Source: Desulfobulbaceae bacterium (lineage in GTDB: Bacteria > Desulfobacterota > Desulfobulbia > Desulfobulbales > SURF-16). From it: a DNA stretch of 64,000 bases. The notes beneath the pieces are model-generated. The model was not told the DNA's origin. It did not search any database and saw only the letters and a program-made list of their open reading frames with translations. The stretch lies in the NCBI GenBank assembly GCA_020444175.1, contig JAHLLM010000026.1, forward strand, positions 1-64,000, read 5' to 3'. Of the stretch, positions 8,140 to 63,860 are shown piece after piece (positions within the stretch are counted from its first letter, which is position 1; each line of letters starts with the position of its first letter). The position numbers and the translations under genes are program-made.

Positions 8140-10086
8140 ATGATAGACCCTGTTCGATACCGGTTTCAGTTTTATCTGGAGAGATTCCTGCTCCGCGGCG
8201 CCCACTACCGATTACTGTTCATTGCCGCTCTGATCGGTCTGATCAGCATTGTTTTCGGCGGAGCGGCCCGCTATTTTTCAAATGATTTTGCCACAAACGG
8301 CGAGGCCTTCTGGTGGGCCTTTCTGCGCCTGACCGATCCGGGCTATCTGGGAGATGACAAGGGCATGTCCCTGCGGATCATTTCCACCATTGTCACAGTG
8401 CTCGGCTATGTGATTTTCATGGGTTCCCTGATCGCCATTATGACCCAGTGGCTCAATGAGACGATCAGAAAGCTGGAAGCGGGCCTGACACCGATTTCCA
8501 TACACGGTCATGTTATCATTCTTGGCTGGACCAGTCTGACGCCTTCCATTGTCCGGGAGTTGGTGCAGTCCGAATCGCGTGTAAAACGCTTTCTGGAGAG
8601 AACCGGCTCCAGACGACTGCGCATTGCCATACTGTCTGAATCCGCTTCTCCGGCCCAGCGACATGAGCTGGAAGTGCACCTGGGAGAAGACTGGGATGAG
8701 CGGCAGGTTATTTTCCGCTCCGGTACGCCGCTCCGTAACGAACACCTGATTCGGGTCGACTATCTCCATGCCGCAGCCATTATCCTGCCTGGCCATGATT
8801 TTGCGCCAGGCGGCTCTGATACTGCGGATATGAGAACCGTCAAAACCCTTATGTCCATCGCCAACTATGCCCGGCAGCAAGATGTTACACTGCCATACAT
8901 GGTGGCTGAGATTTTCGATGCCCGTAAAGTGGAGGTTGCCAAGTCCGCCTATCCGGGGCATCTTGAAACCGTTGCCAGTGATGCCACCATAAGCCTGCTG
9001 GTGGCACAGAATATTCGCCATCCCTGGCTCTCCTATATTTACACGGAACTGCTCTCCCACTCAAACGGCGATGAAATTCGCATACGCCGTCTGCCCGAAT
9101 TGAAGGGCGCTACTGCGGAGAGCCTGACTGATCTCTTCCCAAAGGCCATTCTTCTCGGAGTATTACGAAAACAAGGGGACAGCCTGACCCCTGTTCTAAA
9201 TCCTCCTGCCGGCTTTGTCATCCAGGAACACGACTGGCTGGTATTTATGGCCTGTAACCATGCAGACACCAATCCGGATCCGTCGAAAAAACCGACAAAT
9301 TTTCCCCGCGGCGAATACAAAAATCCTTCCAGCCGGATTCAAAGATGCCAGCGTGTCCTGCTTCTGGGCTGGAATGATATGATTCCTGCCCTGATCCATG
9401 AGCTTGATAACTATGAAAATGAAATTTTCGAGGTGGATGTTTTTTCTTCCCTGCCGACTGAGCAAAGGCAGGAAAGGTTGAATCGTTTTGCTTTGAATCC
9501 GGAAAAGGTGACAGTGGAACTGCTTGAGGGAGATTATACGGTACCCTCAAGTCTGCTGCGAATTGATGTCCTGTCCTATGACAATATCGTTATACTGGGC
9601 TGCGATTGGCTGCCATCGCCGGAAGAGGCGGATGCCAGGACAATCCTGGGTTTCATGATGCTCCGCAATCTGCTGGTCAATGAAACAGATCCACCCAAAG
9701 TCCTGCTGGAACTGCTGGATCCGGAGAATCAGGCGCTCTTCACCAATTCCCATGAAGAGGTCATTTTAAGCCCTCATATCCTCAGTCATATTATGGCCCA
9801 TGTGGCGCTTATGCCGGAACTGAACCTGGTTTTCAAAGAGCTCTTTGGTTCCGGCGGCGCTGAGATTTATCTGCGCTCCTGCGCTCATTACGGGCTTGAT
9901 GCAAAGGATGTGAGTTTTACAGAGATCCAGAAGCAGGTGTCACGTCAAGGAGAGATTGCTTTGGGCGTCAGGATGTATGGCAAAGAATCCCTGCCGGACG
10001 GAGGTATTGAGTTGAATCCTCCACGCCACAGGAGCTGGCATTTCAGAAAAGATGATGAGATCGTCGTGCTGACAACGTCGGTTTGA
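8140..10086 (+). CDS. CASTOR/POLLUX-like ion channel with RCK domains
   Basis: A 648-residue membrane protein. Two main hydrophobic segments (about 24-45 and 90-110) flank a pore-like stretch FWWAFLRLTDPGYLGDD. Residue ~125 onward holds two TrkA-N-like Rossmann/RCK modules: HGHVIILGWTSLTPSIVREL and the second QRVLLLGWNDMIPALIHEL. This arrangement is that of the CASTOR/POLLUX/DMI1 family, Ca2+- or K+-conducting channels known from plants and many bacteria. Ion preference and ligand are not readable here. The next gene begins 126 bases downstream with its own ribosome binding site. Confidence 0.85.
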   Translation: MIDPVRYRFQFYLERFLLRGAHYRLLFIAALIGLISIVFGGAARYFSNDFATNGEAFWWAFLRLTDPGYLGDDKGMSLRIISTIVTVLGYVIFMGSLIAIMTQWLNETIRKLEAGLTPISIHGHVIILGWTSLTPSIVRELVQSESRVKRFLERTGSRRLRIAILSESASPAQRHELEVHLGEDWDERQVIFRSGTPLRNEHLIRVDYLHAAAIILPGHDFAPGGSDTADMRTVKTLMSIANYARQQDVTLPYMVAEIFDARKVEVAKSAYPGHLETVASDATISLLVAQNIRHPWLSYIYTELLSHSNGDEIRIRRLPELKGATAESLTDLFPKAILLGVLRKQGDSLTPVLNPPAGFVIQEHDWLVFMACNHADTNPDPSKKPTNFPRGEYKNPSSRIQRCQRVLLLGWNDMIPALIHELDNYENEIFEVDVFSSLPTEQRQERLNRFALNPEKVTVELLEGDYTVPSSLLRIDVLSYDNIVILGCDWLPSPEEADARTILGFMMLRNLLVNETDPPKVLLELLDPENQALFTNSHEEVILSPHILSHIMAHVALMPELNLVFKELFGSGGAEIYLRSCAHYGLDAKDVSFTEIQKQVSRQGEIALGVRMYGKESLPDGGIELNPPRHRSWHFRKDDEIVVLTTSV

Positions 10087-18738: not shown

Positions 18739-18779
18739 TTGACGATTTGTCATATCAGTATATAAATGTATATTTATAT
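18739..18779 (+). promoter_or_regulatory. Promoter and probable ArsR-type operator of the selenoprotein operon
   Basis: A -35 TTGACG (18739-18744), a 16-base spacer and a -10 TATAAA (18761-18766). Overlapping the -10 is a perfect inverted repeat, ATATAAAT (18760-18767) and ATTTATAT (18772-18779), 8-4-8. ArsR-family repressors usually bind AT-rich dyads over the -10, so this is the likely autoregulatory operator. A MITE now separates it from the arsR start. Confidence 0.6.
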
Positions 18780-18826
18780 ATCTATGAAAAGGGCCGGGTT
18801 AGGTTTAAGGTCTGCAGATTGTTAGG

Positions 18827-18971
18827 TAGTGTCTGTCCAGAAATAGGGTATTTTGTTTGAGATCAAGGACTGCGCAAAAAATTACCGGAGGCATATATGC
18901 GATATTCCGAGGATAATTTTTTAAGCATGACGCAGATATCAGGCAAAAGGAGCATTTGTGGACAGACACTA
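18827..18971. mobile_element. MITE-like element, copy 1
   Basis: 145 bases bounded by perfect 13-bp inverted repeats, TAGTGTCTGTCCA (18827-18839) and TGGACAGACACTA (18959-18971). A copy differing at only a few positions lies at 63657-63800 in opposite orientation. No transposase is encoded, so it depends on one elsewhere. It sits in the leader between the operon promoter and arsR. Confidence 0.8.
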
Positions 18972-18997
18972 GGTAAAGAGTGAGAGAATCGCGTTCC

Positions 18998-19315
18998 ATG
19001 GTAGAAAATTTCAACGAGATGAACCTGCAGACACTGGTCTACCTTGCTAAGTGCCTGGCGGATGAAAACCGGCTGAGAATTTTATTCTGCGTGAGTAAAG
19101 AGAAAAAGTCTGTTTCCACTATTGTGGAAGAACTGCAATTATCTCAGCCTCTGATTTCCCACCATCTCAAAGAACTAAAAAGATCGCTGCTCGTCACTGT
19201 CGAACGAAGCGGCCCCTTTGTTTATTATGAATTGTCTGATGAGCGAATCCTCTCAATACTTGGGAAGCTGAACGAATTAGGAGACGATCTGCTCAAAGCC
19301 AGAGTGAGTTTCTGA
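18998..19315 (+). CDS. ArsR-family winged-helix repressor
   Basis: A 105-residue transcription regulator. LAKCLADENRLRILFCVS is the ArsR N-terminal helix pair. The recognition helix region is LQLSQPLISHHLKELKRSLL, and the wing is VTVERSGPFVYYELSD. Metal-binding cysteines are limited to one in KCLAD and one in ILFCVS, so it may sense redox or a soft ligand rather than classical As/Cd. The first gene of the selenoprotein operon; its TGA stop is followed at once by AGGAGG for the next gene and lacks the downstream hairpin seen at the Sec codons. Confidence 0.88.
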   Translation: MVENFNEMNLQTLVYLAKCLADENRLRILFCVSKEKKSVSTIVEELQLSQPLISHHLKELKRSLLVTVERSGPFVYYELSDERILSILGKLNELGDDLLKARVSF

Positions 19316-19336
19316 GCCAGGAGGATGTCTGAGCGA

Positions 19337-19783
19337 ATGACTGAAATTGAAAAACTAATAAATCGAATGGAGCCTGAAAATGCTCTGGTGGCAATAGCCG
19401 CAGTTGCTCACAAACTGCTTTCTCATGCCAGCGATGCGGCCCGCCTTGATTTTGTTGTCTCGCTGATTGGGGAGAACGGGGCAGACAAGATCTCCAGCAT
19501 GGTCAATCTCTGACTGGCTGAATGTATGGACGAAGGTGTCGATCCAACAAGCATGTGTCAAAGCCTGGTTCACAAAGTTGCCCAGTCAAAACAGTTGATG
19601 GCGGTTGCAGACCCCGAGATTCTCATATTGTTTGAGAGCTGGCTTGATGAGCTTGAGGAAGAGGTGCTGAATTTTTTGAAAACAAATCATGGTGCCGACG
19701 CGCGAGACATTGCAAAAAAACTTGGCATATCTAAAAGCGGCGCTTCTTTCCTGCTTGCAAAATTAACAAAAGAAGCGACTTAA
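19337..19783 (+). CDS. Small helical HTH selenoprotein, Sec59 (TGA at 19511-19513)
   Basis: Read through the in-frame TGA at 19511 this is one 148-residue protein; read conventionally it would be two tiny same-frame ORFs. The N-terminal part is helical (EKLINRMEPENALVAIAAVAHKLL). The Sec sits in MVNL-U-LAEC, a UxxxC pair. After a helical middle, the last ~35 residues look like a winged or HTH fold (ARDIAKKLGISKSGASFLLAKL). Bases after the TGA can form ATGGAC/GTCGAT (one mismatch) with loop GAAGGT, GGT being bases 25-27 from the T of TGA. The start is set at 19337 because AGGAGG (19319-19324) abuts the ATG at 19325 with no spacing. Function unknown; a redox-sensing partner of ArsR is one guess. 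Confidence 0.72.
19511..19543 (+). promoter_or_regulatory. Sec codon and predicted bacterial SECIS hairpin 1
   Basis: TGA followed by a stem ATGGAC/GTCGAT (19526-19531 and 19538-19543, one G-G mismatch) and a 6-base loop GAAGGT. GGT occupies bases 25-27 counting T of TGA as 1, close to the essential GU of the E. coli fdhF element. Confidence 0.65.
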
Positions 19784-19794
19784 AGGAGACTGTT

Positions 19795-20049
19795 ATGCAC
19801 ACATTAACTGTTTTTCACAGCGGCAACCCGTCATGAGTAACCTGCAAAAAGGCTATAGGTGTAGCCAATGAAATAAAAGAAAAATTTGGCAGCAACCTTG
19901 AGGTAAGGATTCTTTCCACCGACTCTGCGGAAGCTAAATCTCATAATTTCAGGGCTTCAACCAATGTTTTATTGAACGATGAGTTGATACCACTTGATGT
20001 AGCAGTGGATAGAAATAAATTAGATCAGTTTTTATCGAATCATATTTAG
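19795..20049 (+). CDS. Thioredoxin-like selenoprotein with UxxC active site, Sec14
   Basis: An 84-residue protein, seen only if the TGA at 19834-19836 is decoded as Sec. It begins MHTLTVFHSGNPS-U-VTC, a beta strand leading into a UVTC redox motif (Sec14, Cys17) where thioredoxins and glutaredoxins have CxxC. KKAIGVANEIKEKFG (helix 1) and LEVRIFSTDS-like strand follow, and DELIPLDVAVDRNKLDQFL closes a minimal Trx fold. The frame after TGA runs 71 codons to a TAG. AAGGAG lies 6 bases before the ATG, and the hairpin after TGA is a good SECIS. Likely cytosolic thiol/selenol oxidoreductase. Third gene of the operon, 11 bases after the previous stop. Confidence 0.88.
19834..19866 (+). promoter_or_regulatory. 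Sec codon and predicted bacterial SECIS hairpin 2
   Basis: TGA at 19834-19836; perfect 5-bp stem GGCTA (19851-19855) / TAGCC (19862-19866), loop TAGGTG, with GGT at bases 25-27 from the TGA. Confidence 0.8.
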
Positions 20050-20067
20050 GGAAAGAGAGGAAAGAAT

Positions 20068-20379
20068 ATGAATATGCTTATTATCATCAGTACAAGCGAT
20101 GGCGAAACTATTTACAATGCAATGCGCCTGGCGAATGTCGGAGTAAAAAAAGGCGACCACATAAGTGTTTTCATGCTAGGTAAAGGAGTGCTCTTTTCTC
20201 AGGTCGGTACCGAAGAATTTGATGTAATGGAGCAGGTCAACCAATTTGAGGGAGATTTTTATGTCTGAGGCGTGTGCATGAAATCCCACGGTCTGGAGGG
20301 ATCAAGCACTTGTCCTATTGGTTGGATGGACGACCTTTATGAAATAGCAAAAAAGGCTGATACGGTCTTAACTTTTTAG
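20068..20379 (+). CDS. DsrE-family selenoprotein, Sec67 (TGA at 20266-20268)
   Basis: A 103-residue DsrE/DsrF-like protein. MNMLIIISTSDGETIYNAMRLANVGVKKGD and VFMLGKGVLF are the family's N-terminal Rossmann-like half. After the in-frame TGA the match resumes with U-GVC, then SSTCPIGWMDDLYEIAKKADTVLTF. The usual active-site Cys is thus Sec67, followed by Cys70 and Cys82. Without Sec decoding the protein would lose its whole C-terminal third and all its cysteines. DsrE-family proteins carry or transfer sulfane sulfur; Sec forms of DsrE-like proteins are known from deltaproteobacteria. Fourth gene of the operon. Confidence 0.92.
20266..20302 (+). promoter_or_regulatory. Sec codon and predicted bacterial SECIS hairpin 3
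   Basis: TGA at 20266-20268. Stem ATCCC (20283-20287) / GGGAT (20298-20302), or the alternative TCC/GGA inside it, places CGGT in the loop. GGT is again at bases 25-27 from the TGA. Confidence 0.75.
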
Positions 20380-20425
20380 CCTGTTAAAGGGAGATTTTAA
20401 AACAGTCAAGCTCGGAGTCCCGCAA

Positions 20426-21556
20426 ATGAAATTTACCCCTTTGAAATTTCAGGGAACACTGGCAGCAGCCGGCGTTGCACTGATGCCCTATATCTTTTTG
20501 AAAGTTAATATTTTTAAAAGCGACGGGCAGATTTCCCTATCTGACCTGTCGCTTCTGACAAAACCGAGTCTAGAGTATGTGGCAGCCTTGTTGTTGATTG
20601 CTGTGATGGGAAGTTTTGTTGTTATCCATCTCAGCCTTTCGGTTTTTTTTCTTCGTGAACTTATTAAGTGGGTCGCCACCTCCAGCTCCTTTAAAGAGAT
20701 ACTGAACAATCCACTGACGAATGCATCGCTGTTTTCTCCGCTCATCTCCGTGCCCATGACCATGATTGTCCTTTTTGGTCCAGTGAGCTTTTTTGTGCCG
20801 CAGATAACGGAAAATATGCAGCTACTGATGGCTCCGGCATTTGCGGTGTTCTGTCTTTTGTGGCTCCCTTTGGTTATTCTCGAAATCAAAGCCGTCCAGG
20901 TCTTTTTGACAAACCAGGTTGATTATCTGAGCTTGAACTTCGGCTGGCTCCTTGACGTGCTGGCCCTGGGAGCAGTGTCGTTGTTTGGTTCGAGCTTGGT
21001 CAACGCCTCGGAAAATCATCTGATTTCCAATGCTGCAGCAATCATGGTTTCCATCTCTTTAGCTGTAGGGGTGGTCATTTTTGCCTTTAAGATGTCTGTC
21101 CTCGTTTACCTGCAGGTAAAATCGGTGGCCAAGCCCACTGTTAACATTCTTCCGGCGTATTTTTTATTCATACCACCAATGTGTCTTCTTGGTTTCAGCT
21201 CTTTTAAGATCATGATGTTTACCAGTAAGAGTTATGGGGTTGATCTGTCTACCGCCTCATTTTTGACCATGGTTTTTTCATACGCAGGAGCAATGACGTG
21301 GTTTGTTTTCGCTATATACCGGCTGAGGGAATATTTGGGAAAGGAGTTCTTGTCTGCCGATTTCTCCCCGGCTCAATGGGGCATGGTCTGAGGCTTTGTT
21401 GGTACCCAAGTTTTGGGTACAATGGTTTATAAACTTTACTTCGCCAGTGCCTTTCTGGGGGCTGTCAATTTCTTGAGCATCATTTTTGTCACTGTCGTGT
21501 TCTTTTTGATATTTAAAAAGTTTATTGCCGCATCACGGAGGGCAGTATCTGCGTAA
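20426..21556 (+). CDS. Polytopic membrane selenoprotein, Sec322 (TGA at 21389-21391)
   Basis: A 376-residue membrane protein if the TGA at 21389 is Sec; 321 residues if it is a stop. About eight hydrophobic segments precede the TGA (for instance YVAALLLIAVMGSFVVIHLS and PAYFLFIPPMCLLGFSSF). The 54 codons after it encode a ninth clear segment (NFLSIIFVTVVFFLIF) ending in a basic KKFIAASRR tail, just what a genuine transporter C-terminus looks like. The segment pattern faintly recalls the TDT/SLAC1-like family, which I cannot confirm. Sec lies at a predicted membrane boundary (GMV-U-GFVGT). A perfect 8-bp hairpin follows the TGA. Last gene of the operon; it may export or import the operon's substrate. 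Confidence 0.68.
21389..21420 (+). promoter_or_regulatory. Sec codon and predicted bacterial SECIS hairpin 4
   Basis: TGA at 21389-21391; perfect 8-bp stem GTACCCAA (21402-21409) / TTGGGTAC (21413-21420) with loop GTT at bases 22-24. The geometry differs by three bases from the other hairpins here but is close to fdhF. No T-run follows, so a terminator is less likely. Confidence 0.55.
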
Positions 21557-21828: not shown

Positions 21829-22971
21829 TTAGGATTTCTTGCAGCTCTCCATGGCCCTGTTTTCCAGGTTGAAAATATGGGTGATTGCAGCCTCAATGGA
21901 AACATTTCGTTCAAACCAGCCCCTGAAGCATTGGGCCTCAAGACCCCATTCGGAATGGCTTAACTCCAATTCCGCCTTGATCTGACCCAGGAACTCGGCC
22001 AGATCCTCTTCGCTGTTGGCCTCCGAGTAAATCATGTAATCGCAGTGCTTGCGGAAGAGCATGATGGAGCCGTCATATCGTTTTCGTTTTTTCTGAAAGC
22101 AGGCAACCGTCTCTTTGAGCCTCTGCCCTATTTCGTCATGTACCTGGCTTGCAACGATAAAGCCGTAGTCCCGCTGGAATTTTCCATAATCTCCAAAGTT
22201 GATCAATTGCAGCTCATATCCCATGCTGCCATCTTCACCAAGAATATTCAGGTCATCAAGAACAAGGAGGTAACGGTAGTTATACAGTTCGCTCAAGGTG
22301 TCCCTGAAAAAGGTGTCCCTGCGGAAGTTTTCTATTTCTTCCATAAAGCCGGCAGTGGAATACAGGTGGATATTATCCAGTATCAGGGAATCGGCTATTG
22401 TGCAGAGGGCGTTTACTGCCTCCCCATCAAGGTGATGAAGGCTGACCTCATGCTTGAGTATTTCCAGCACACTTTGTTGGGGAAGGGCTTTTTTATAGGG
22501 TCGCTTGGCGCTCATGGCCTCAAACACATCGGCCACGGCAGTGATCCGGGACAGCCGGTCGATTTGATTTCCCTTCAAGCCAAGGGGATAGCCGCTGCCA
22601 TCCAGGCGTTCATGGTGGCGAAGAATGATGTAGGTTATTGAATCGTCCAGCAGCCTTCTGGCGAAAAATTTGGCGCCGATCAGGGGGTGATACTCCATTA
22701 TGCGCCGGTCCTGGAGGTTAAAGAGATTTGGTTTCAGGAGAATGTCATCGGGAATGGCAGTCTTGCCGATATCGTGGACAAGGCCTGCCAGCTCAAGGAT
22801 ATCAAGTTGTTCTGCCGGTAAACCCATTGCTTCACCTATTTTTTTGGCAATTCGGGATACCCTGATGGTGTGCACATAGGTGGGATAGTCTCTATAGGCC
22901 AGAACTTCGCTCATAATGGCAAAAAGGTCGTGAATGAGCATTTTATTGTCAAAGCTGAGTGTTGGTTCCAT
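21829..22971 (-). CDS. HD-GYP protein with degenerate GGDEF-like C-terminal domain
   Basis: A 380-residue cytosolic protein. Residues ~10-200 are an HD-GYP phosphodiesterase domain: ELAGLVHDIGKTAIPDDILLK holds the HD dyad, and RHHERLDGSGYPLGL the second histidine pair and GYP motif. The C-terminal half begins FFRDTLSELYNYRYLL, resembling the start of GGDEF domains, but no GGDEF signature follows, so it is probably a non-catalytic binding domain. Expected to hydrolyse cyclic di-GMP or a related dinucleotide. Confidence 0.88.
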   Translation of the reverse strand: MEPTLSFDNKMLIHDLFAIMSEVLAYRDYPTYVHTIRVSRIAKKIGEAMGLPAEQLDILELAGLVHDIGKTAIPDDILLKPNLFNLQDRRIMEYHPLIGAKFFARRLLDDSITYIILRHHERLDGSGYPLGLKGNQIDRLSRITAVADVFEAMSAKRPYKKALPQQSVLEILKHEVSLHHLDGEAVNALCTIADSLILDNIHLYSTAGFMEEIENFRRDTFFRDTLSELYNYRYLLVLDDLNILGEDGSMGYELQLINFGDYGKFQRDYGFIVASQVHDEIGQRLKETVACFQKKRKRYDGSIMLFRKHCDYMIYSEANSEEDLAEFLGQIKAELELSHSEWGLEAQCFRGWFERNVSIEAAITHIFNLENRAMESCKKS

Positions 22972-34764: not shown

Positions 34765-37700
34765 TTACTGGACGGAGCAGTCTGTTATGCCAAACATAGC
34801 GGCGAACTCCTCGATTTCCGATTCGTTAACCCCCTGATCCGTCAGGGCTGCCAGATCGACGCCGTCCACATCGCCGTCCGGTTCTGAATCAAAACTGCAT
34901 AACCGGGGAACTTGCGTGTTGTTTAAAAGCAGGCTGTTCTGGCCCACATTGGCATTAAAGAGGTCGGGTGCGCCGTCGCCGTTGACGTCGGCAAGCTCCA
35001 TTCCGTATGAGTTTTCCGTGGAGGCAGGCAGCATGCCTGCCGTGTAATGCAACTGGCCCGGATTTGCATCGTCATTGGTCAGCAGGAAGTTCTGGCTGGA
35101 GGTATTGCGCCCGATAAGGATATCCTCGTCACCATCCAGGTCAACGTCCCGGCTGATACCTGTAGTCCAGTATTTATAATCATTACGGCTGTATGTCCAG
35201 ACAAGCTCAGTTGGCAGCCAGTCATCCCCGTACTGGGAATGGTCAACAAAACCGGTATCTGTCTGGGTAAAATAGAGCGGATAGTCGTAATCCTGGGGGC
35301 CGAAGATGTCGAGCATTCTATTGGTGTCAGAGTCAAAGTCTGCCAGCAGCAGTGAGACCACCGAGTATTCTCCTGAGAGATAGGGCTCCACCAGGGTGAA
35401 CAGTCCGTCTACATTTTCATAGAGCCAGGTTCGGAGATAACTGTAGTTATACCCGCAGCGCACCAGGTCAAGGTCTCCGTCCTGATCCATATCTCCCAGG
35501 GCGATGGCTCTGGTGCCGCCGCCGTTATGGCTTCTGCCGTATTGATCGGTGCTGACACTTATATCCGTAGCATCGACAAAAATTCCTGATCCGGCGTTGA
35601 GGTAAAAACGGTCTTTACTGCGCAGGGGGTGATAGTAGTCATTGCAGCCCGGGTTGTCAGGGCAGTCGGCGCAGTCATTACAGCAGTCCGGACAGGAGTT
35701 ACAGGTGCCGTCACAGCAGACAACACACGACGTCTCTCCTTCGCATTCCCAGCAGTCACCATTACAGCACGGATGATTTTCGTAACCCGGCTGTTCGCAG
35801 TACCCGTATTCCCAATAAAATTCACAATTTGTACAGAGGCTGCAGTCAGGACAATCATCACAACTGAACCAGGGTGCGCTGCATTCGCCGCAGGAATAAC
35901 AACACTCATCCTCATAAACAGGCCAGTCTCCGGACTGAAAAATGCAGTCCTGGTCATTGGCAAAGATAAGGTCTGGAAGACTGTCGTCGTTGATATGACC
36001 CACGGCAACCTGAACACTGTTGTCTGCAAGGGCCGGCAGGCGGCTGAGGGTTTCATCACTGAAATGACCGCTGCCGTCATTGATGTAAATTTTGTTCTGA
36101 CCGCCTGCCATGACGCATTCCAGCCGGTCCTCTATGCCGACATTCTGCCACCAGGCACGGAAGGCGCCAAAGTTGGCAATGACCATATCAAGGTCATTGT
36201 CATTATCAATGTCCACGAGTTCGACATCAATGGACTGATCAGTGTCAACAGGCAGATAATCATCAGCCGTTGACGCAAGAGTGTCCGGGCCGAAAGTCAT
36301 ATCAACAAATGAACCATTGCCATCGTTGATATAGAGCCTGTTCTGGGGATTCATGCTCTGGCAGGCCGGGTCCGGGTAATCCATGTTGTCAGCAGTTTCG
36401 CCGCCCATATTGGCCACTACAATATCAATATCATTATCACCGTCAACATCGCCCATGGCCACAGCCCTGCTGCAGTCATCAAGCTCGGGCAGCGATCCTG
36501 CCGGGGCAGGGGAGAAGCTTCCTGCTGGCATGCTTATGCCTGATGGAAAGCTGTTTGACTGTTTGTCGTTCACCGTGACAACGACATCACCGGCGCCGCA
36601 GCCATCGGGCACGGTCACCTGAAGTTCGTCATAAGCGGCAGAGGTCACCGTGGCGGGAACGCCGTCAATGGTGACGGTGTTATCCGATAAATCAACGTCA
36701 AAGCCAAGGCCGCTGATGGTCAACGTATCTCCCCAGGTGACGCCTTGGGGCTGCACATCAGATATTGTATGCTGGACATGGACGCTCACCGTGGACAACT
36801 CGCTCCAGACCCAGTCCTCAGCCGGATCTTTACGGACTTTGAGGCTGATAATATAGTCGCCGCCAACAGAGGCGTGCAAATCAGGCTGGTCCGCTCCATC
36901 CGATGCCGTTCCATAGGAAGGCTGCACCCCTCCGGCCCATTCACTCATCGATGTTGTCACGCTCCAGGCAAAGTAGAGTGGATCGCCTTTGGGATGGCTG
37001 CTGCCTGTGCCGTCGAGAGTGATCAGGGTCAAGCCTCCCGGAGCGGCACTGACCCATTGCTCGCTGCCTGCATCGGCAACGGGTTTGTTGTCCCATGGGT
37101 CAAGGGGATTGTCGCCTATGGCCACTTCGTCGCCATCGTTTACCCCGTCGTCATCGCTGTCAGCATCGTTTGGGTCAAAATCAACTGCCGGTGTGTAGGA
37201 TGACGGGTCGCCGTCCTGGTTTATTTCATCAAAATCACTGATGCCGTCATCATCGGTGTCGTCTTTCCTGGGGTTGGTGTTTATTGTCATGACCTCTGCA
37301 TAGTCGCTGAGCCCGTCATTATCCGTATCAGGGTCATTAAAGATGTTAAGCCCGTCTCCGTCAACGTCCACTGTCCAGTAGCCTTTGAGAAAAATCAGTT
37401 CCTCTCCGTCATCAAGCCCGTCAGCATCGCTGTCTGCAAGGGCTGGGTTTGACTGATAGATATAACGCTCTTCATCGTCTGGCAGTCCGTCTCCGTCTGT
37501 GTCGGTTTTCGTGAAGGCCGGAGGCAGCAGTTTTACGGAAGGATCGCCATAGATATTCATGCCGAAATTGTTGACCCAGGAAACCTCTGAGTCGGTTTTC
37601 GACTGCTTGGCATAAAACAGGGCATCGCCTGCCGGCATGTCCTGACTGAGCTGCTGGGCATAATAAAAGGCCGTTGCCCTGTTATCGGCATAGGTAATGG

Positions 37701-39660
37701 TCTGGGGAAGATAGCCGTCATCGTCTTCGGCAAAATCTCCCACATAATACCAGCCCTCCCGGCTTGCAGCCAGGGAGACAAGGGCGCCGCTTTCAAGAAG
37801 CGTCGCGCCGAGATTGCCTGCTGTCTCAGGCCTGCCGATGTTGCAGGAATCCGAAATGGTAAAGGCCGGAGTTGCATTGGAAAGCTGGCTGGTGGAACTT
37901 GTTCCGAAATAGGTGGAAAAACTGGGGCAATAGATGAGAGGGTTTGCCGTTTTATGGAGTTTACGCCACAGTGCACTTGTGCTGCCATGCAGGGACCAGA
38001 AGACAATGCCGTATGGATTTGCTGCATTCCAATGGTCATCAAGATATTTTGTTGTTGATTCGGGGTCTAAAGAATCTTTTGACAGCGGGGCATCACCGTC
38101 GATATCCGAGGTGCTGAGCCACAACCCATCGGGATCGCCTTCCTTTTCGGTGAGCAGCCAGGTGTCGAACCCGGCAGGGTTCAAGGCGTGGATTTCCGCA
38201 GACCGGCCAAGATAGGCATCGTCCGACATCTGCATTCCGTCTCCGTCACAACTGAACCAGCCCTCCCCGAAATTCAGGATGCTCATGGGCAGCAGTGCTT
38301 TTTTACGCCACAGGAGATTGGAGTTGTCTGCCTCAGAATAGCTCACGTTCTCATAATCCATTACCTTTTGCAGAACCGGAGTGATGGCGGCTTCATCGGA
38401 AAATGGAATGCGGCCCACATAAATCTCGGGCAGAAACTCTACGCCCCCGGTTCCCCTGTCTCCTGAATACTCGCAATAGCGGTTGTCGCCATCAAGGTCC
38501 CAGTTGCCGGACAATTCAGCAAAGAAATAATCGGTGGGTGCCTCCAGGGTGCTCCCGCCGCTTGCCGTGCCGCTGTCGAGTTCCGGAAAGCACATCATCA
38601 TGGGCAGGTCGCCGTAACTGTCTGTTTCATCAGGATGGTCCGGATCGGGATTTCCTATGAGCAGGGCGTAGCGAAGGTTTTTGGCTGCAGCAATGTGGTT
38701 GCTTATAAGCCAGGAGCGAATATTAACTGCCCGCTGCTGTCCCGTGTCGCTGCCATAGCCTGCCTCCATTGTTGAACTGCCATGTTGATGGGCCTCGTTT
38801 TGCGTGACAATGTAGACCGTAAATCCTAAAGCGGTTTTGTGCTCTGCAAATTGGTAAAGGATCGAGGCGGGATCAGGAGAACCCAGTCCGTCTTCATAAA
38901 GGGATTCTTTGAGCAGATCAGTGGTGATTACGGCAAAGCCGTTTCCGCTTGCTGCGTCCAGTTCGCTTGAAGATGAGGTGCCGCTGTCATACCAGCTTTC
39001 AGCTTCTGCGCTGTTTAAAAGGGGGAGGGCTAAAGTCGTGCTCAGTACTTTTTCCGGAGCTTGCTGCATCTTTTTTGATTCTGATTTCTGGTTGTAAGAA
39101 AGGATGATGCGCACCTCTTTTATCCATTCCGCCTGGCCTGTGAACGGGTTGTAACGCAGGGGGAAGTAGTGCAGGCTTCCTATCTTGCGGTCTCGTGAAG
39201 AAGAGAGCTGGCCTTTTTCAACGGCTTTTTCCGGGAACCATTGGTTGCTCCCGTAGATATCTGCATCCCGGTTGTTGACTATTTTTTTATCCTTTCCATA
39301 AAAAACAGAGCCGCTCCCCTGGGAAAGATAAGGCGCTACCGGAGACAGGGTTATTTTTTGAGGAATCGTTTCTCTGGCGATGATTTCCTCGGCAAGGCTG
39401 AGCGATTCAGGGATGACATTGGCAGGCAGGCTGAACCAGAAAACCTTCGCGGGCACGGCGGGAGCTCCCGGCTGGTCAATATGGTGGAAGCCTTTCATGT
39501 TGATTCGCTGCTCGCCGGTTTTGCCGATAATCGCAGGCTGAGGACTGCTCAGGGAAAATTCAAGCTGGCCAGCCATAGCGGGCTGGTAAAAGATGAGTGA
39601 GAAAAAGGAAATAAGAAAACAGGCGGTGATGGAAGGCAACAGGTGATTTCTGCCCGGCAT
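34765..39660 (-). CDS. Secreted C25-family (gingipain-type) cysteine peptidase, multidomain
   Basis: A 1631-residue exported protein. After a signal peptide (to about MAG, residue 31) and a propeptide-like region, the C25 catalytic domain spans ~260-700. The general-base His is in FWSLHGSTSAL (~555) and the nucleophile Cys in ISDSCNIG (~605). Next come thrombospondin type-3 calcium repeats (DTDGDGLPDDEE etc., ~715-855), a PKD/Ig-like domain, an IPT/TIG domain (~960-1045), and VCBS/FG-GAP-like repeats. These repeats are interrupted by a cysteine-rich insert (~1250-1340) with about 24 Cys in under 90 residues. The C-terminus is a dockerin-like motif (EPDGDVDGVDLAALT). Likely degrades extracellular protein. 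Transcribed alone. Confidence 0.85.
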   Translation of the reverse strand: MPGRNHLLPSITACFLISFFSLIFYQPAMAGQLEFSLSSPQPAIIGKTGEQRINMKGFHHIDQPGAPAVPAKVFWFSLPANVIPESLSLAEEIIARETIPQKITLSPVAPYLSQGSGSVFYGKDKKIVNNRDADIYGSNQWFPEKAVEKGQLSSSRDRKIGSLHYFPLRYNPFTGQAEWIKEVRIILSYNQKSESKKMQQAPEKVLSTTLALPLLNSAEAESWYDSGTSSSSELDAASGNGFAVITTDLLKESLYEDGLGSPDPASILYQFAEHKTALGFTVYIVTQNEAHQHGSSTMEAGYGSDTGQQRAVNIRSWLISNHIAAAKNLRYALLIGNPDPDHPDETDSYGDLPMMMCFPELDSGTASGGSTLEAPTDYFFAELSGNWDLDGDNRYCEYSGDRGTGGVEFLPEIYVGRIPFSDEAAITPVLQKVMDYENVSYSEADNSNLLWRKKALLPMSILNFGEGWFSCDGDGMQMSDDAYLGRSAEIHALNPAGFDTWLLTEKEGDPDGLWLSTSDIDGDAPLSKDSLDPESTTKYLDDHWNAANPYGIVFWSLHGSTSALWRKLHKTANPLIYCPSFSTYFGTSSTSQLSNATPAFTISDSCNIGRPETAGNLGATLLESGALVSLAASREGWYYVGDFAEDDDGYLPQTITYADNRATAFYYAQQLSQDMPAGDALFYAKQSKTDSEVSWVNNFGMNIYGDPSVKLLPPAFTKTDTDGDGLPDDEERYIYQSNPALADSDADGLDDGEELIFLKGYWTVDVDGDGLNIFNDPDTDNDGLSDYAEVMTINTNPRKDDTDDDGISDFDEINQDGDPSSYTPAVDFDPNDADSDDDGVNDGDEVAIGDNPLDPWDNKPVADAGSEQWVSAAPGGLTLITLDGTGSSHPKGDPLYFAWSVTTSMSEWAGGVQPSYGTASDGADQPDLHASVGGDYIISLKVRKDPAEDWVWSELSTVSVHVQHTISDVQPQGVTWGDTLTISGLGFDVDLSDNTVTIDGVPATVTSAAYDELQVTVPDGCGAGDVVVTVNDKQSNSFPSGISMPAGSFSPAPAGSLPELDDCSRAVAMGDVDGDNDIDIVVANMGGETADNMDYPDPACQSMNPQNRLYINDGNGSFVDMTFGPDTLASTADDYLPVDTDQSIDVELVDIDNDNDLDMVIANFGAFRAWWQNVGIEDRLECVMAGGQNKIYINDGSGHFSDETLSRLPALADNSVQVAVGHINDDSLPDLIFANDQDCIFQSGDWPVYEDECCYSCGECSAPWFSCDDCPDCSLCTNCEFYWEYGYCEQPGYENHPCCNGDCWECEGETSCVVCCDGTCNSCPDCCNDCADCPDNPGCNDYYHPLRSKDRFYLNAGSGIFVDATDISVSTDQYGRSHNGGGTRAIALGDMDQDGDLDLVRCGYNYSYLRTWLYENVDGLFTLVEPYLSGEYSVVSLLLADFDSDTNRMLDIFGPQDYDYPLYFTQTDTGFVDHSQYGDDWLPTELVWTYSRNDYKYWTTGISRDVDLDGDEDILIGRNTSSQNFLLTNDDANPGQLHYTAGMLPASTENSYGMELADVNGDGAPDLFNANVGQNSLLLNNTQVPRLCSFDSEPDGDVDGVDLAALTDQGVNESEIEEFAAMFGITDCSVQ

Positions 39661-63604: not shown

Positions 63605-63656
63605 GATTTGCTCCTGAAAAAATTTGCATCGGTAACCAGAGGACACGGTCGTAGCT

Positions 63657-63800
63657 GGTGCCTGTCCATAAATGGCCCTTTTGACCGATATCTGCGTCAT
63701 GCTTAAAAAATTATCCTCGGAATATCGTATATATGCCTCCGGTAATTTTTTGCGCAATCCTTGATCTCGAACAAAATGACCTATTTCTGGACAGACACTA
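63657..63800. mobile_element. MITE-like element, copy 2 (inverted)
   Basis: Reverse complement closely matches 18827-18971, including the interior. Right end TGGACAGACACTA (63788-63800) is perfect; left end GGTGCCTGTCCA has one change. TAGCTGG occurs at both flanks (63652 and 63799), a possible target duplication. Confidence 0.8.
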
Positions 63801-63860
63801 GCTGGTACCGATGCATTTTTGATTTAAATTTTGCCTATTCAGACAACATTCACAACTTTA

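Follow-up and report, generated by a model that had tools for sequence, protein, structure and literature searches.

A 64,000-nucleotide stretch of DNA from a Desulfobulbaceae bacterium (GenBank assembly GCA_020444175.1, contig JAHLLM010000026.1, positions 1 to 64,000 of the forward strand; hereafter the window) was found to carry at 18998–21556 five closely spaced genes in the order tsoR-tsoA-tsoX-dsrE-tsoY, which almost certainly form an operon of the tso family that includes four genes for selenoproteins. All five lie on the plus strand. tsoR (18998–19315; alternative start GTG at 18980) encodes an ArsR/SmtB-family regulator and scored 154.8 bits with NCBIfam model NF045707 (cut-off 115). 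It is followed by tsoA (19325–19783, alternative start ATG at 19337; NF045695, 221.6 bits, cut-off 170), tsoX for a thioredoxin-like protein (19795–20049; NF045809, 122.7 bits, cut-off 52), dsrE for a DsrE-like protein (20068–20379; Pfam DsrE PF02635, 37.0 bits, cut-off 22.7) and tsoY for a membrane protein of putative SLAC1/TDT type (20426–21556; NF047643, 467.5 bits, cut-off 250). Each of the last four genes contains one in-frame TGA, and each frame runs to a normal stop when TGA is read as selenocysteine (Sec, U), giving U63 in TsoA (19511), U14 in a UxxC motif of TsoX (19834), U67 in a UGVC motif of DsrE (20266) and U322 in TsoY (21389). A preliminary description of the window had reported four adjacent genes with TGAs at these positions behind an ArsR-family gene, and had characterized their products as a UxxxC protein with a helix-turn-helix domain, UxxC proteins of thioredoxin-like and DsrE-like type and a membrane protein; the TGA positions were exact, the frames continue, the leading gene passed the TsoR model, and the four products were found again as TsoA, TsoX, DsrE and TsoY, respectively.

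The same description had not recognized the set as a described system, which did not hold, since TsoR, TsoA, TsoX and TsoY pass NCBIfam models whose names refer to a published operon, the 'three selenoprotein operon'. A 2026 review (PMC13188914), in its passages on the subject, counts TsoA, TsoB, TsoC, TsoX, TsoY and DsrE-like proteins as selenoproteins of prokaryotes and, with reference to Haft and Tolstoy 2025, presents the Tso operon as three selenoprotein genes plus further adjacent ones; those passages name the operon without stating a function. Like that operon (tsoA, tsoB, tsoC), the window has TsoR, TsoA with its LULAxC motif, TsoX and TsoY above the cut-offs; unlike it, the genome of the window contains neither TsoB, the published rhodanese/DsbD double selenoprotein, nor TsoC, the published NEPxGxxU selenoprotein, and a Sec-DsrE stands in the operon. 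The operon is a tso variant and not a plain member because TsoB and TsoC of the published set are missing. The best score of the TsoB model in the host genome was 62.8 bits (cut-off 805), and a distant TsoB was rejected as the matches were rhodanese or CcdA-like pieces only; the TsoC model gave no match in the host genome and 142.1 bits on locus L102 (L numbers denote loci and G numbers genomes). DsrE-like selenoproteins had been listed by 2006, for Desulfovibrio vulgaris, in the relevant part of PMC1794560. The window protein shares the DsrE family and the UxxC motif with them; it differs in sitting inside a tsoR-tsoA operon and in passing no NCBIfam model, those for the known DsrE-like selenoproteins included.

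Conservation of the Sec sites was assessed in protein alignments. U was found in 45/45 aligned rows of TsoA, in 14/15 of TsoX (gap in one) and in 5/5 of TsoY; the 64 DsrE rows had U in 57, Cys in 3, Ile in 1 (a fragment) and a gap in 3. Outside these alignments were L209 and L210 (TsoA, U), L216 (TsoX, Leu), L219 (TsoY, U), two Cys proteins of the TsoY family and seven TsoA relatives below the cut-off. Cys in place of Sec was seen in DsrE of L135, L140 and L141 and in TsoY-family proteins of L142 (over the cut-off) and L148/L220 (partial, below it). TGA-bearing matches mostly covered the family both 5′ and 3′ of the TGA (DsrE of G276 and G227 partial); in relatives, the frame continues past the TGA into the protein-like sequence noted earlier. 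The host genome has both SelB (367.8 bits in a profile search, cut-off 242.25) and tRNA-Sec (67.2 bits, cut-off 47, anticodon TCA), two of the four components (selA, selB, selD and tRNA-Sec) that the preliminary description had proposed to check.

Candidate selenocysteine insertion sequence (SECIS) hairpins lie on the plus strand just after the TGAs, at 19527–19546 in tsoA (loop AGGUG), 19851–19866 in tsoX (loop UAGGUG), 20283–20302 in dsrE (loop GGUCUG) and 21402–21420 in tsoY (loop GUU). The structures were drawn after inspection of the alignments, sequences were thinned to more than 4 differences in 55 bases, and as a control one strand of the hairpin was slid by 1–3 columns. Standard pairs filled 97% of cells for tsoA (28 sequences; slid control at most 43%), 93% for tsoX (11 sequences; at most 42%), 88% for dsrE (21 sequences; at most 54%) and 90% for tsoY (5 sequences; at most 55%). 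Pairs altered on both sides numbered 1, 1, 3 and 3 for TsoA, TsoX, DsrE and TsoY, and 0, 56, 1 and 7 of 500 shuffles, respectively, matched the covariation score, the TsoX hairpin being the weakest. The hairpins claimed after each TGA are thus conserved in relatives with compensatory changes. Folding of the window sequence alone gave no significant hairpin (z +0.3 to −1.6), and single-sequence folding was dropped as a proof of SECIS function. That null result is what speaks for reading the TGAs as ordinary stops or a degraded operon with chance frames downstream; against such a reading stand the conserved Sec or Cys, the conserved protein after the TGA, the conserved hairpins and the Sec machinery of the host, and chance read-through, ruled out by conservation, was left with a vanishingly small probability. 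Taken together, there are strong signs that the four genes use selenocysteine.

The gene content around tsoA was compared across 395 genomes surveyed in the phylum. Matches to TsoA occurred in 46/395 genomes (33 over the cut-off; 41 with TGA), the TsoB fusion in 22/395 (21 over the cut-off plus G083 in two pieces; three candidates per genome were scored), DsrE at E ≤ 1e-15 in 46/395 (37 with TGA), TsoX over the cut-off in 21/395, and TsoY in 5/395, all 5 of which also have TsoA. Directly 5′ of tsoA, tsoR was found in 47/47 loci (45 distinct); L209 agrees with this order and the contig of L210 ends there. TsoB and DsrE were scored within 4.5 kb on the same strand, three rows being cut by contig ends, and the 42 scorable rows comprised 20 with TsoB, 19 with DsrE, none with both and 3 with neither. 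This exclusion gave a Fisher p of 3.5e-9, and 5.3e-8 in the 38 rows found via TsoA, both values ignoring descent. A minimum of 7 TsoB/DsrE changes was required on the TsoA tree, and the well-supported sisters L084 and L118 differ. TsoC accompanied TsoB in 18 of its 20 rows and is not strictly bound to it (exceptions L077/L114, L109, L115 and L122). On the sequence evidence, TsoB and DsrE are taken to be alternatives beside a constant tsoR-tsoA core. The full order tsoR-tsoA-tsoX-dsrE-tsoY was seen in the window and in L111; tsoR-tsoA-tsoX-dsrE occurred in L078/L124, L091 and L125, tsoR-tsoA-tsoY-dsrE in L061, and DsrE adjoins TsoY in L219 and L130.

Two further observations concern rhodaneses and TsoB. 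Contig 20 of the window's own genome carries two tandem rhodanese genes (69501 and 70309; L003/L005) with in-frame TGA in the active-site loops, which weakly resemble the rhodanese part of TsoB. Contig 128 of G278 (37540–39243) holds a TsoB match that exceeds the cut-off and lacks a TGA; it is apparently a non-Sec form, and the Sec form is present in G278 as well.

Upstream of tsoR, a putative TsoR operator with the palindrome ATATAAATGTATATTTATAT was located at 18760–18779, where it overlaps the −10 element (TATAAA) of the tso promoter; the −35 element is TTGACG (18739–18744, plus strand). The palindrome pattern ATATAAAYNNNNRTTTATAT, set after part of the tsoR upstream regions had been inspected, was matched at no more than 3 mismatches in 28/44 of these regions, compared with 0.34 in shuffles. 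By hand count it was present in 9/19 DsrE-type and 15/20 TsoB-type rows (the region of L103, TsoB type, being too short). In contrast, only 2/39 regions before DsrE or TsoX at loci without TsoA had it, and the operator was rejected as a feature of such loci. A box with at most one mismatch to TTGACA lay 15–19 nt before TATAAA in 20 of 29 operators (random anchors, 3.3%); this analysis reached 420 bp upstream, hence one operator more. A generic promoter scan omitted the −35/−10 pair of the window. The window operator is an exact match and the sole exact one in the genome, which has one further site with one mismatch on contig 29; a control pattern also gave one match per strand. Control of the operon by the ArsR-type protein, proposed before, is thus supported by a candidate operator over the tsoR promoter, and TsoR would act through this operator-like palindrome.

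TsoA consists of a helical part followed, at the C terminus, by a winged helix (Pfam HTH_24, 23.4 bits, cut-off 21.9). The helical part holds a Sec-Cys-Cys triad (U63 in 45/45 rows, C67 in 45/45 and C78 in 44/45). A structure model of TsoA of modest quality (predicted local distance difference test, pLDDT, 62.5) gave no PDB match at E ≤ 0.001, and the best partial matches were winged-helix domains. The C-terminal half is common to seven relatives examined below the cut-off (G062, G245, G288, G363, G324, G278 and G236), and an ArsR-type gene lies upstream on the same strand in 7/7 of their loci (L231–L237), with a membrane-protein gene between the two in L236 and L237. In most of these relatives an N-terminal Met-rich stretch with a Cys takes the place of the triad region. 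The TsoA-like part of L231–L235 lacks a TGA; L236 and L237 retain a UxxxC motif with a TGA. The short TsoA-like proteins could possibly represent a wider family of ArsR partner proteins. These relatives make it more likely that TsoA may work with the ArsR-type regulator, in sensing or in co-regulation.

TsoX weakly matched a probable thioredoxin in the PDB (E 0.034), and such weak matches point to a thioredoxin-like protein. The DsrE family profile matched YchN (1jx7, E 1.6e-4); a PDB sequence search with the window DsrE alone returned nothing useful. The closest named DsrE relative is from a Desulfocapsa metagenome-assembled genome (89%), and 46 relatives carry Desulfo-, Syntropho-, deltaproteobacterial or plain proteobacterial names. 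Seven TsoY-family members were compared with Pfam SLAC1 (PF03595, cut-off 27.9): three orthologues passed with nearly full-length matches (41.1, 32.1 and 30.0 bits), two fell below, and two gave no match, namely a Cys paralogue and the window TsoY, which differs from the SLAC1/TDT family further in carrying Sec, placed in a predicted membrane helix. PDB sequence searches with TsoY returned nothing useful. The SLAC1/TDT family includes TehA and the sulfite exporter Ssu1. A gene of the TauE/SafE family of sulfite exporters stands 3′ of Sec-DsrE in L125 and faces Sec-DsrE in L066, a below-cut-off fragment of one lies 3′ of Sec-DsrE in L096, and another lies about 2 kb off in L130; these neighbours are few and point the same way as TsoY. 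A Cys-form TsoY paralogue of G145 (L218, 3623–6188) follows an HD-domain gene that by eye resembles the HD-domain gene adjoining the tso operon of the window (21829–22971).

A combined explanation can be offered as plausible and tentative, somewhat short of an even chance: the operon would be a tso variant in which tsoX, Sec-DsrE and tsoY occupy the place that tsoB and tsoC have in the published form, together making up a detoxification module repressed by TsoR. TsoR would repress the operon until a stress signal arrives, with TsoA as its sensing partner or as a shared core enzyme. DsrE would serve as chalcogen carrier, doing the job done elsewhere by the Sec-rhodanese part of TsoB; TsoX would reduce DsrE, TsoY would move the small anion formed in this way through the membrane, and the purpose would be to detoxify reactive sulfur, selenium or soft-metalloid species. 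The functional part of this, in which a carrier, a reductase and an exporter make up a repressible module against chalcogen or soft-metalloid stress, is put forward as a possibility that we would not yet rate as probable.

Several results weigh against this explanation. When restricted to well-supported branches, the TsoB/DsrE exclusion was not significant: of the 4 independent pairs left, none was of the same kind, about 2 were opposite and 2 did not differ, and this test was dropped as having too few pairs. The 19 DsrE are mixed, with 11 close to that of the window, 2 intermediate (L130 and L133, upstream of tsoR) and 6 distant; 17 of them have Sec, L135 has Cys and L139 is unreadable at the site. 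L209 and L210, outside the 42 rows, have neither TsoB nor DsrE, and one of the 41 TsoA genomes, G358, carries the two proteins on separate contigs. No TsoA, TsoX or TsoY was seen in 33 of 46 DsrE-selected loci, some of them on short contigs. Desulfosarcina widdelii (L074) carries a Sec-DsrE gene, and the 12 kb covered there contained no TsoA, TsoX or TsoY; conserved partners of Sec-DsrE outside tso loci were sought in eight loci and rejected, as the neighbours were mixed. No recognizable operator was present in L111 (6 mismatches), the closest relative to share the order of all five genes, nor in 16/44 tsoR upstream regions as a whole. For the window TsoY, the lack of a Pfam match is joined by an unusable structure model (pLDDT 44.5). 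Only one column of TsoR has Cys in at least 30% of rows (17/47), and thiolate-based metal sensing of the ArsR kind by TsoR itself was rejected for lack of widely conserved Cys ligands. A purely sulfur-based version is further weakened by arsenite-methyltransferase-type selenoproteins near the tso loci L139 and L122.

These methyltransferase neighbours (NF041537, cut-off 510: 625.2 bits in L139 and 426.5 in L122) are also among the points in favour of a soft-metal system, in which the TsoA triad would bind As(III), Sb(III) or Hg(II) and the other proteins would reduce, carry and export. The near-invariance of the triad fits this, as do the Met-rich, Cys-bearing stretches of TsoA relatives beside ArsR-type genes. 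However, the neighbours concern only 2/47 loci and surfaced by clustering, no full search having been made; the four flanking genes scanned in the window were those for an ABC ATPase, an ABC-2 permease, an HD-domain protein and a cation efflux protein, with no search for arsenic genes in the rest of the window; and TsoR lacks the conserved thiolate ligands. A soft-metal system was on this balance considered unlikely. Selenium homeostasis, with an operon that senses and handles selenide or selenite and a DsrE acting like YedF, was considered more improbable still. YedF was the commonest weak NCBIfam match of DsrE rows (12/15), a DsrE domain is common to both proteins, and a membrane partner has been proposed for YedF too; in the part of a 2015 paper that bears on this (PMC5322559), YedE is tied to selenium transport and YedF to selenium-related redox. 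The matches to YedF, at a best E of 0.0015, are however far below the cut-off, the window protein consists of a single DsrE domain, and there is no sel gene among the five genes of the operon. A joint reading that takes tso as a modular chalcogen/metalloid defence was judged improbable as a whole, its parts being held together: TsoA would be a Sec co-sensor of TsoR and one of a wider set of ArsR partners with a shared winged helix and differing soft-ligand stretches, TsoB and Sec-DsrE would be effectors that can replace each other under one shared operator, and TsoY would be a SLAC1-type anion channel controlled by its membrane Sec.

With a candidate operator in hand, the inducer can be tested for directly, and since TsoB and a DsrE-type protein alternate next to a single regulator, the range of substrates that the pathway may handle becomes narrower. 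Both a Sec in a SLAC1-type membrane protein and a winged-helix selenoprotein retained beside a repressor would, if true, be unusual. The constancy of tsoR-tsoA, the TsoB/DsrE alternation, the putative operator, the SLAC1 matches of three TsoY orthologues and the TsoA triad and winged helix with the relatives of TsoA were added by this analysis.

Some further features were recorded. At 9991–11200 of L139, 4.4 kb from a distant tsoA, lies the gene of an arsenite methyltransferase/AhpD-domain selenoprotein, which contains several TGAs in frame. In L176, L179, L180, L183, L188, L189, L197, L058, L064, L068 and L089, loci without TsoA, a gene of ArsR type was seen near Sec-DsrE or TsoX and on the strand opposite to it; some of these loci may be from the same genomes. 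Between the tso promoter and tsoR, and outside the system, lies an inverted-repeat element of about 145 bp (18827–18971) with the ends GTGTCTGTCC and GGACAGACAC, of which the window holds a second copy at 63652–63803. The genome has at least 40 copies of at least 117 bp including that at 18827–18971, the others being 83–97% identical; 40 of 91 candidates were scored, so the copy number is a lower bound.

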